Shown: piece by piece, positions 39,537 through 41,852 of the stretch
How positions within the stretch are numbered: the first letter of the stretch is position 1
Layout of the letters: every line of letters begins with the position of its first letter
From: Acidobacteriaceae bacterium
Lineage (GTDB): Bacteria; Acidobacteriota; Terriglobia; Terriglobales; Acidobacteriaceae
DNA: 64,000 nucleotides
NCBI GenBank assembly: GCA_003132405.1
Contig: PKXQ01000066.1
Coordinates: 80,802 to 144,801, forward strand
Direction: 5' to 3'
Made by a program: the position numbers and the translations under genes
The notes under the pieces: model-generated
Told to the model about the DNA's origin: nothing
The model's database searches: none
Seen by the model: only the letters and a program-made list of their open reading frames with translations

Positions 39537-40400
39537 CTAGATTTTCGACGGAGTGGATTTCGGCTCAACGGATTTCGGCTCCGACTCCCGCTCGTGCCGA
39601 TGGAACCAACTCATGTGAGGTAGATCACGCTCCACTTTTCGCCGTTTTGCAATCAGTTCGGCGGTGATGGAAACAGCGATCTCTTCCGGCGTGATGGCGC
39701 CGATATCCAGTCCGACCGGCGAGTGGACTCGATCGAACAGATGCGCCGGCAGGCCTTCCTGCTGCAACTCTTTGAAGATGGTTATCACTTTTCGTTTCGA
39801 TCCGATCATGCCGATGTAGCGCGCCGGAGTCTGCACCGCCCAGCGCAGCATTCGCATATCGTCGCGGTGCCCGCGCGTGACGATCACGATATACGAAGAC
39901 TCGCCCGGCATGATCTCGGCGGCAGCCTTATCAAAATCGGCGGCGATCACCTGCTGCGCCTCGGGGAAGCGCTCGCGGTTGGCGTAAGCTTCGCGATCGT
40001 CGATGATTGTGACGTCAAAACCGGCGATGCGCGCGACTTTATAAAGGCTCGCCGCCACGTGGCCGGCGCCAAAAATATAAAGATCGGCGGGAGGCAGCAC
40101 CGGCTCGACAAAAATTTCGAGCGTTCCGCCGCAGACGAGGCCGGTATCGTTCTTTGGATCCTGATTCAGATCGAAGGTCAGTGTGCGCGGCTTCTCCGAT
40201 TCCATCACCTCGCGCGCCGCCTGCCAAACTTCAGCCTCAACGCAGCCGCCGCCGATCGTGCCGACGATCGAGCCATCGTCGCGCACCAGCATCTTGGCCG
40301 TCTTGAACGAAGGAATCGATCCGCGCACATTGACAATAGTGGCCACCGCGCCCCGACGCCCTTCTTTACGCAGCCGAACGATTTCCTCGTAGAGATCCAT
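39537..40400 (-). CDS. XdhC/CoxI family protein
   Basis: A 287-residue protein. The N-terminal XdhC/CoxI domain has ATIVNVRGSIPSFKTAKMLVRDDGSIVGTIGGGCVEAEVW. The C-terminal Rossmann domain has LYIFGAGHVAASLYKVARIAGFDVTIIDDR and YIGMIGSKRK. XdhC proteins bind and sulfurate molybdenum cofactor and insert it into xanthine or CO dehydrogenase-type enzymes. No such enzyme is in the window. The extreme C-terminus consists of 15-bp repeats (EPKSV, EPKST, PSKI). ATG 40400 fits the family start. The upstream region has a possible promoter and terminator, suggesting an attenuated leader. Confidence 0.85.
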   Translation of the reverse strand: MDLYEEIVRLRKEGRRGAVATIVNVRGSIPSFKTAKMLVRDDGSIVGTIGGGCVEAEVWQAAREVMESEKPRTLTFDLNQDPKNDTGLVCGGTLEIFVEPVLPPADLYIFGAGHVAASLYKVARIAGFDVTIIDDREAYANRERFPEAQQVIAADFDKAAAEIMPGESSYIVIVTRGHRDDMRMLRWAVQTPARYIGMIGSKRKVITIFKELQQEGLPAHLFDRVHSPVGLDIGAITPEEIAVSITAELIAKRRKVERDLPHMSWFHRHERESEPKSVEPKSTPSKI

Positions 40401-40466: not shown

Positions 40467-40497
40467 AAACAAAAGCCCCGGATCATCACTCCGGGGC
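40467..40497 (-). terminator. Rho-independent terminator-like hairpin upstream of xdhC
   Basis: On the minus strand AGCCCCGGA and TCCGGGGCT form a 9-bp stem with a 7-base loop, followed by TTTGTTTCTT. It lies downstream of the tRNA at 40604-40692 and 67 bases upstream of the xdhC start. It could end the tRNA transcript or act as an attenuator for xdhC. Confidence 0.65.
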
Positions 40498-40498
40498 T

Positions 40499-40575
40499 AC
40501 TGGCGTTTTGCCAGTGGGTACTAATAACACGGCCTGCGAGCTTCTATCGTCACCCTGCCGCGACGCCCTGTCAAG
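40499..40575 (+). other. Degenerate inverted partial copy of the neighbouring tRNA
   Basis: Plus-strand GGCGTTTtgCCAGtGGGTAC followed by TAATAACaCGGCCTGCGA matches the 5' half of the minus-strand tRNA (GGCGTTTCCAGCGGGTACTG then GACGCGGCCTGCGA) with two small insertions and few substitutions. CTGCCGCgaCGCCCT at 40555-40569 may be a remnant of its 3' acceptor strand; the variable and T arms are missing. Read on the minus strand this stretch is therefore complementary to the tRNA. A -35-like TTGACA (minus, 40574-40569) lies at its edge. Confidence 0.55.
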
Positions 40576-40603
40576 AGCACTTTTTTAGCTGCGAGTGACT
40601 GCA

Positions 40604-40692
40604 CGGAGGGCGGCAGACTCGAACTGCAATGGCTGATGTAGCCACTCGACGGCTTCGCAGGCCGCGTCCAGTACCCGCTGGAAACGCCCTCC
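40604..40692 (-). tRNA. Non-canonical class II tRNA with 8/4 acceptor/T-stem, anticodon GCG
   Basis: The minus strand folds as a cloverleaf. The 8-bp acceptor stem is GGAGGGCG (40692-40685) with CGCCCTCC (40612-40605), followed by discriminator G at 40604. The D-arm stem TCCAG/CTGGA has a 6-base loop CGGGTA. The anticodon stem is GCGGC/GCCGT with loop CTGCGAA, anticodon GCG after T33. The long variable arm is TGGCT-ACATC-AGCCA. The 4-bp T-stem is GCAG/CTGC with a perfect T-loop TTCGAGT. CCA is not encoded. A 12-bp branch made of 8+4 pairs is not the normal 7/5 and not the 8/5 of selenocysteine tRNA. A long variable arm with G73 suggests charging by seryl-tRNA synthetase, while GCG would read Arg codons CGC/CGU. 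Confidence 0.75.
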
Positions 40693-40829
40693 AGACTCAG
40701 CCCGCGATGTACACTTTACGACTTGGCGCGAATACGTTCTGTGTCACTTGTCACAATGCTTTTGGTACATTGCGATTAGCATTTTGTTCCGAAACGGTCT
40801 CTGACCCTGAGAAGTTCACGGGAGCACCC

Positions 40830-41852
40830 ATGAAAGCTGTTCGTATTCATCAGTTCGGCGGGCCGGAAGTTCTGGTGTACGAAGATGTGCCCGATCCCAA
40901 GCCGCGCAAGGACCAAGTCCTCGTACGAGTCCGGGCATGCGCGCTCAATCACCTTGACATATGGGTGCGCAAAGGATTGCCGGGCGTGAATCTGCCGCAC
41001 ATCCTGGGCAGCGACATCGCCGGAGAGATCGCCGAAGTCGGCGAGTACATCACCGACCTCAAGGTCGGCCAGCGGGTGCTGCTGGCGCCGATGGTTTCCT
41101 GCAATCGCTGTGCGAAATGCGTGGCTGGCCTGCAGAATGAGTGTCGTCAATTTGCCGTGCTCGGCAACGCAATTGACGGCGGCAACTGCGAATTGATAGC
41201 AGTCCCTGCCGTCAATGTCATCCCGATTCCCGACTGGCTCGATTTCAACGAAGCTGCCAGCGTTCCTCTCGTTTTTGTTACGGCATGGCACATGCTCACC
41301 GGGCGCGCCGCGATTCGTCCGGGACAGACCGTGCTGGTGCTGGGCGCGAATTCTGGCGTGGGCATTGCCGCCATCCAGATCGCGAAAATGTTTCACGCGC
41401 GTGTGATCACCACTGCCGGCGACGAACGCAAGATAGAGCGCGCCCGCGAACTCGGCGCCGATTTTGTCATCAACCATTACCAGCAAAAAATTTCGCAGGA
41501 AGTCCGCAAGATCACAAACTTTGAAGGCGTCGACATCGTCATCGAGCACGTGGGAAAGGCCACGTGGGACGAGAGCGTCAAATCGCTCAAGGCTGGAGGC
41601 ACGCTGGTGACCTGCGGCGCAACCACGGGCCCAAAAATCGAACTTGATCTGCGCTTCCTCTTCTCGCGCCAATTGGCATTCCTGGGATCGTATATGGGCA
41701 CAATGAGCGAACTGCATGAAGTGCTAGGGCACGTGTTTGCGGGACGGCTAAAGCCGATCATCGACCACACTTTTTCGCTAAAGGAAATTCGCACCGCGCA
41801 CGAGTATCTGGAGAAGAGCCAGATGTTTGGCAAGATCGTGCTGAACCCGTAG
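40830..41852 (+). CDS. Zinc-type alcohol dehydrogenase/quinone oxidoreductase (MDR family)
   Basis: A 340-residue medium-chain dehydrogenase. The start MKAVRIHQFGGPEVLVYEDVPDPKPRKDQVLVRV is typical. Catalytic-domain residues follow in HILGSDIAGEIAEVG. CNRCAKCVAGLQNEC holds the four structural-zinc cysteines. The NAD(P) site is VLVLGANSGVGIAAIQIAK. The substrate cannot be read. ATG 40830 is correct because GGGAG lies just upstream; the frame is open to 40629 but that part overlaps the tRNA on the other strand. A dispersed repeat follows the stop. Confidence 0.9.
   Translation: MKAVRIHQFGGPEVLVYEDVPDPKPRKDQVLVRVRACALNHLDIWVRKGLPGVNLPHILGSDIAGEIAEVGEYITDLKVGQRVLLAPMVSCNRCAKCVAGLQNECRQFAVLGNAIDGGNCELIAVPAVNVIPIPDWLDFNEAASVPLVFVTAWHMLTGRAAIRPGQTVLVLGANSGVGIAAIQIAKMFHARVITTAGDERKIERARELGADFVINHYQQKISQEVRKITNFEGVDIVIEHVGKATWDESVKSLKAGGTLVTCGATTGPKIELDLRFLFSRQLAFLGSYMGTMSELHEVLGHVFAGRLKPIIDHTFSLKEIRTAHEYLEKSQMFGKIVLNP

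Follow-up and report, generated by a model that had tools for sequence, protein, structure and literature searches.

The window, i.e. the whole 64,000-nt stretch of DNA analysed, carries between xdhC and a zinc-binding alcohol dehydrogenase-like gene a tRNA gene of the allo-tRNA kind and, beginning 60 nt downstream of it on the same strand, a predicted gene for a small RNA complementary to that tRNA (Table 1).

Table 1. Positions, in the window, of the tRNA gene, the predicted small RNA gene and their surroundings
Feature	Position	Strand	Basis or remark
Allo-tRNA of 8/4 type with long variable arm and anticodon GCG; discriminator G, CCA not encoded	40604..40692	-	ARAGORN, RNAfold, Rfam, co-variation
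Predicted 5′ leader, partly complementary to the anticodon arm of its own tRNA	40693..40705	-	Sequence
3′ trailer AGTCACTCG, complement of the 5′ strand of the variable arm	40592..40600	-	Sequence
Sigma-70-like promoter of the small RNA	40546..40574	-	TTGACA 40574-40569, 17 nt, GACGAT 40551-40546
Predicted antisense small RNA gene	40468..40544	-	Match to model R2, 56.7 bits; R2 was built with this copy among others
5′ seed CTCGCAGGCCGTGTT	40526..40540	-	Complement of the anticodon stem 5′ strand and loop
D-arm complement AGTACCCACTGGCAA	40508..40522	-	Pairs with the tRNA D arm
Intrinsic terminator of the small RNA, then T-rich tail	40474..40498	-	Script search
xdhC (XdhC/CoxI family), marker of the orthologous site for gain or loss of the module	39537..40400	-	
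Zinc-binding alcohol dehydrogenase-like gene, flanking the module opposite xdhC	40833..41852	+	

The tRNA gene and the predicted small RNA gene

ARAGORN gave the anticodon GCG and the exact span of the tRNA, and RNAfold folded it into a cloverleaf with an 8-bp acceptor stem, D arm, anticodon arm, long variable arm and a 4-bp T stem with the loop UUCGAGU; its energy of −43.3 kcal/mol (z −2.59) was equalled by 3 of 200 shuffled sequences. In a 501-base stretch searched with lax filters, the tRNA-Sec model of Rfam (RF01852) spanned the whole tRNA with 52.6 bits against a gathering score of 47, and the fast ‘gathering’ Rfam scan over the entire window gave no match. The full 8/4 class-II cloverleaf with anticodon GCG on the minus strand, as described in an earlier sequence-only reading of this DNA, was thus borne out, and the 12-bp acceptor branch arranged as 8/4, the long variable arm and the non-Ser anticodon place the gene among the allo-tRNAs. 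Among 36 related tRNAs, 98.0% of the cells of the 8/4 cloverleaf were paired, with two-sided changes at 13 of 27 pairs; none of 500 shuffles matched either score, and 19 of 500 did so for further pair types. The compensating changes were located in the acceptor, anticodon and T stems; the D stem was invariant and the variable arm showed no two-sided change, so that co-variation does not prove these two helices. The sequence-only reading had made its case depend on conservation of the stems with compensating changes in related genomes, and this conservation was found.

The selenocysteine tRNA (selC) has a long acceptor branch and variable arm in common with the window tRNA, which its Rfam model matched, but it has UCA and an 8/5 branch in place of GCG and a 4-bp T stem. 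These two features, together with a separate, genuine UCA tRNA-Sec on contig C8 of the host genome (5.7 Mb in 158 contigs, 88.8% complete), ruled out selC, as the sequence-only reading had also held. Approximately 1 kb from the genuine one is another UCA tRNA-Sec-like sequence (G000:C8:52975-53080, L006), some bases of whose 5′ half are undetermined. The host genome also has a second copy of the GCG allo-tRNA on contig C142 (78-79% identity) and an ordinary tRNA-Arg ACG, in agreement with the expectation that CGC and CGU are normally read by ACG; a missing normal Arg reader was thereby ruled out, and no GCG reader is required for these codons. The anticodon GCG, regarded earlier as a peculiarity, is real but is among the commonest of 8/4 allo-tRNAs, along with UAU and GUC (PMC7609411, in the part consulted), and it occurred at 19 of 79 loci of the present study. 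Some allo-tRNAs have an insert in or adjoining the variable arm (L057, L060, L096 and L097), of which L057 and L060 retain the small RNA and its match; L097 is labelled Verrucomicrobia, perhaps from a misbinned contig.

In the window, the predicted seed forms 13 consecutive pairs with the tRNA (12 Watson–Crick and one G–U), and a duplex through the D and anticodon arms is predicted at net −20.1 kcal/mol over the separate folds. The −10 hexamer GACGAT of the window copy is poor, and a consensus scan requiring at least four of six matches per hexamer did not pick up this promoter. Across loci, small RNA promoters scored 9.53 on average versus 6.94 in shuffles, with scores of at least 9 at 52 of 72 loci against 2.5 expected, and the promoter signal of the allo-tRNAs was weak (7.40 vs. 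6.83 in shuffles), as is the −10-like TACATC (40706-40711) located 5′ of the window leader. A single terminator was found in the stretch searched around the small RNA versus 0.6 expected in shuffles; its structure was conserved across 31 small RNAs, and the script search found a terminator at 64 of 79 loci. No Rfam family covered the small RNA, the best match in the 501-base stretch being Spot 42 with 17.5 bits against a cut-off of 80. In the flanks of 27 loci, a set that includes the window itself and L051 (25-base match only), almost every tRNA was followed on the same strand by a near reverse complement of its own anticodon arm, often then by a D-arm complement and a terminator. Small RNA genes were also seen in rows with differing seeds, some without a nearby tRNA (L114, L119, L129, L150 and L187).

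Predicted locus-specific pairing of the tRNAs with their downstream DNA

Anticodon arms were predicted to bind their own downstream DNA more strongly than that of other loci in sets of 26 (−25.4 cognate vs. −16.4 kcal/mol non-cognate), 47 (−24.5 vs. −16.2 kcal/mol) and 79 loci (−26.9 vs. −17.2 kcal/mol), with 0 of 20,000 permutations as extreme in each; the sets overlap, the genome collections behind them share genomes and the permutation ignores kinship, so the three are not independent samples. The 47-locus set contains seven chance non-acidobacterial matches, and the 79 loci are drawn from 85 records after exclusion of L162, L164-L167 and L170 (no D-arm motif or no downstream DNA); L073, L086, L087 and L089 (at least 70 bits) entered only the 47-locus test and the final run-length count. 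Over the 79 loci, the longest pairing run averaged 14.0 in cognate and 8.1 in non-cognate combinations, with cognate runs shorter than 11 at 12 loci and approximately 9% of non-cognate pairs reaching 11. The own partner ranked first for only 19 of 47 tRNAs, partly because many arms are alike. The net predicted hybrid was −17.7 for cognate and −5.2 for non-cognate pairs, falling below −5 in 64 of 64 and 156 of 384 cases, respectively. Duplex energy against shuffles was alone not a clean test, since four control tRNAs stood at 2.7-3.7 sd on one flank (L203 downstream; L202, L206 and L211 upstream) and L194, with a 17-base match, reached only 1.7 sd; run length separated them.

When the tRNAs and small RNAs of 30 loci were aligned separately, a single antidiagonal was 81% paired, whereas the remaining offsets averaged 39%. 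In 97% of these loci base 34 was paired, in all four Watson–Crick types, and base 33 (U or C) was met by A or G in 30 of 30 as U–A or C–G, changes from U33 to C33 in the tRNA being mirrored in the small RNA. Because shared ancestry raises the mutual information of other column pairs as well, the evidence is the antidiagonal rather than any single value. Pairing between these tRNAs and their putative antisense RNAs is thus strongly supported by the sequence comparisons.

Complementarity was not confined to the small RNA. The 32 nt upstream of the tRNA were also locus-specifically complementary over the 79 loci (−17.0 cognate vs. −12.3 non-cognate; 0 of 20,000 permutations), with −9.1 and −8.9, respectively, in a control stretch, and the trailer matched the variable arm in the same manner (−15.6 vs. 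−12.7; 0 of 20,000). In a test for a possible switch formed by leader and trailer, the acceptor stem was lost in 28 of 64 cognate precursors, 98 of 320 precursors with swapped flanks and 3 of 64 mature tRNAs.

Occurrence and one-way decay

A tRNA model (R1) and a small RNA model (R2) were searched with strict filters in 398 genomes of the family. R1 matched in 72 genomes at any listed score and in 55 at 70 bits or more, and R2 in 69; sequence regions were taken from all 105 R1 matches except 14 that scored no more than 55 bits. Of 77 R1 matches of at least 70 bits, 75 proved to have a partner, 67 of them with a run of at least 11 (63 of 73 and 4 of 4) and eight by R2 match alone, although R2 derives from the partners of these very tRNAs and its matches at tRNA loci are therefore not independent. 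The other two are L126, with an assembly gap at the site, and L136, with an acceptor mismatch. Conversely, 49 of 112 R2 matches had no tRNA match within 260 nt upstream; as weak R2 matches may be chance terminators, the 20 of 67 matches of at least 40 bits without a tRNA match are the safer count, and the reverse, a tRNA without a small RNA, was rare. A second R1 search at E 0.001 found no tRNA in the 20 orphan regions (L173-L192), and four orphan small RNAs (L150, L183, L188 and L192) by eye adjoin decayed tRNA remnants. Orphan seeds nevertheless fitted the best of 67 distinct arms at a mean of −27.4 kcal/mol versus −16.3 (sd 3.0) for shuffled seeds, 23 of 25 lying beyond 2 sd of the shuffled value. 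Decay thus runs one way, with the tRNA lost first.

At the xdhC site, where gene content was assigned by coordinates and reading, both genes were located within approximately 210 nt of xdhC in 11 genomes (G000, G004, G008, G018, G029, G050, G436, G474, G603, G636 and G639) and 1.1-1.8 kb from it in three (G002, G032 and G059). The small RNA was present alone, 46-71 nt from xdhC, in five genomes (G001, G457, G547, G580 and G682) and probably in G537; G624 has the tRNA, with an assembly gap at the expected position of the small RNA. As judged by eye, G013 retains an apparent terminator remnant, and in seven genomes of the genus the site has its usual neighbours but no match to the module. The 14 loci near xdhC have anticodons GCG, GUC and GCC, and the seed follows the anticodon in most, though only 10 of 18 positions are Watson–Crick paired in L139, L038 and L041.

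A D-arm pattern scan of named genomes returned 51 stretches, 43 of them labelled Acidobacteria; a phage origin was rejected, the pattern having no match in viral contigs. In other families, six tRNAs from two families (L193-L198) share the D-loop motif and have runs of 15-19, the partner match starting 51-104 nt downstream. The other 14 of 20 class-level matches (eight UCA and six other anticodons, including one UAU) gave runs of only 7-11 and no partner, as did four home-family UAU-type tRNAs (L162 and L165-L167), with runs of 7-11 downstream and 6-11 upstream; thus no antisense partner accompanies any of the UCA (Sec-type; eight) or UAU tRNAs (five) that were examined, a further difference between selC and the window tRNA. 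In four more distant allo-tRNAs (L160, L168, L169 and L171) the D arm is longer (TGTGGGTACTGGG) and the antisense partner pairs 16-18 bases in a row, the anticodon loop being uncertain in two of them.

Decoding potential and interpretation of the pair

The codons that the allo-tRNAs would decode are mostly common, UAC (rank 35) being an exception, and none is a serine codon. With codon usage taken from six window genes and anticodon kinds unweighted, the nine decoded codons averaged 33 per 1000, a value that none of 20,000 random sets of sense codons attained (mean 16.4) and that 7 of 20,000 sets attained when only C/G-ending codons were drawn. With loops read in a fixed register, which is visibly shifted in 4 of 79, the base at position 32 agreed in 46 of 50 loops with that of the host's canonical tRNA carrying the identical anticodon, against 26.6 on average in permutations (none of 20,000 as high), and in 16 of 20 distinct loops (93 of 20,000 permutations); the test omits the four shifted loci and the GCG and AUC loci, whose anticodons no canonical tRNA of the host carries. 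A canonical-like position 32 speaks for decoding. However, base 33 was not U in 29 of 79 loci (C in 25 and G in four, where G may reflect errors of the fixed register), which is unusual for a decoding tRNA and counts against it. The discriminator was G in 59 loci, including the window copy, U in 19 and A in one, so that Ser identity is not uniform. Furthermore, CCA directly follows the tRNA in only three of 79 loci (L058, L116 and L122) and is absent from the other 76 as well as from the window copy (40601-40604), so that a CCA-adding enzyme would usually be needed for maturation, whereas it is encoded in a canonical tRNA-Ser and the tRNA-Sec of the host genome (L003 and L005).

According to the part of PMC7609411 consulted, Acidobacteria, Clostridia and Proteobacteria have allo-tRNAs whose branches are 8/4 or 9/3, a Ser identity is proposed for them, and both Ser insertion at other codons and non-translational roles are proposed for 8/4 tRNAs, which agrees with what the sequence-only reading had stated. 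Two Silvibacterium allo-tRNAs inserted Ser at Leu codons in E. coli (PMC7609411, same part), and the outlook of that review terms the reasons for the allo-tRNA structure ‘a bit more speculative’. The window tRNA resembles these allo-tRNAs (Mukai et al., 2017, via the consulted part of PMC7609411) in its 8/4 branch, long variable arm, occurrence in Acidobacteria and non-Ser anticodon, but the account in section 7 of that source describes expression in E. coli with mention of neither a partner nor toxicity, and a co-varying antisense RNA is absent from it. Among open-licence papers, none was found that joins an allo-tRNA with an antisense RNA, and none turned up by broader searches describes such a partner in its title or the opening lines of its abstract. 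The kind of tRNA is already known, and the new result is the adjoining predicted antisense gene that co-varies with the anticodon. The sequence-only reading was right as to the 8/4 class-II tRNA but overlooked both this gene and the complementarity of the 5′ leader.

The data are consistent with a tRNA that is capable of translation and controlled by an antisense RNA, and we propose the following scenario, which we consider reasonably probable: a two-RNA module in which a Ser-type missense tRNA is held down by a dedicated antisense RNA, probably in a toxin–antitoxin-like manner. The allo-tRNA, probably charged with serine, would have an anticodon for a very common non-serine sense codon, here CGC/CGU, and when free would insert serine at arginine positions. 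The antisense RNA, approximately 55-86 nt and transcribed from its own promoter, would pair in the cell through its 5′ part with the D and anticodon arms of the same tRNA, either unfolding it or blocking decoding, and the tRNA would act once the antisense supply stops. The strong promoter of the small RNA, the weak promoter of the tRNA and the earlier death of the tRNA suggest a toxin–antitoxin-like pair. In its specific form, which we advance tentatively as somewhat short of probable, the toxin would be a translation-competent tRNA that misreads a common host codon by inserting serine, and an antisense RNA would serve as antitoxin by unfolding it; the pairs would diversify their anticodon arms jointly, and stand-alone antisense genes would be leftover immunity.

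Alternatively, the allo-tRNA might be a beneficial minor missense tRNA, e.g. for stress-induced proteome diversification, with the antisense RNA setting its level and no toxin involved. The same locus-specific pairing evidence applies to such tuned translation, and the match at position 32 is as expected of decoding-tuned loops; however, the patchy occurrence in the family and losses in which only the small RNA survives are more in keeping with a burden than with a benefit, and we regard this alternative as unlikely. Still less likely, the small RNA would be an effector acting on mRNAs through its seed, and the allo-tRNA a stable tRNA-shaped sponge titrating it. The classic bacterial small RNA layout of 5′ seed and terminator and the persistence of orphan small RNAs are consistent with this idea, and C33 would be harmless to a sponge, but no fixed mRNA target seems to hold the seed, as it shifts with the anticodon arm at the xdhC site, and compensating changes preserve the acceptor and T stems beyond what a sponge requires. 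A DNA-level or cis-only role, in which an inverted duplication of the 5′ part of the tRNA forms a hairpin within a single long transcript or serves recombination or mobility, with no separate antisense RNA, is very improbable. In its favour, trailer, seed and D-arm complement are arranged as in a reverse-complement copy (V′, AC′, D′), the leader is also complementary and several copies occur per genome, including a tandem pair in G007. Against it, the sigma-70-like promoter ends 3-11 nt 5′ of the seed at loci scoring at least 8, orphan small RNAs retain seed and terminator without a tRNA, and no inserted-element boundary common to the xdhC-site loci was seen by eye.

The proposed module of missense tRNA and antisense RNA can be compared with known toxin–antitoxin systems. 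In type I systems, an antisense RNA is encoded beside its target RNA and is complementary to that RNA. The predicted small RNA of the window is likewise a complementary antisense, by sequence only, but its target is a tRNA instead of an mRNA for a toxic peptide, and the putative toxin would not be a small protein. In CreTA, an RNA toxin sequesters a rare tRNA (PMC8501985, in part). A small toxic RNA acting on tRNA supply and an RNA antitoxin would be features common to CreTA and the proposed module, though CreA, a CRISPR-repeat-like antitoxin RNA, acts via a CRISPR effector on the toxin promoter (same part of PMC8501985) and direct pairing with the tRNA is predicted here.

The tRNA and its predicted antisense partner look like a risky RNA kept together with its own antidote. 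With an antisense partner that follows the anticodon, the allo-tRNA gains a concrete role that can be tested, and it can be predicted by which RNA each tRNA is silenced. Should the tRNA prove non-toxic, the pair would be a natural on/off switch for a recoding tRNA, useful in genetic-code engineering. If it is toxic, this would be an all-RNA toxin acting by missense decoding, and the question of what partnered allo-tRNAs are for would have its answer, since they would be RNA toxins.
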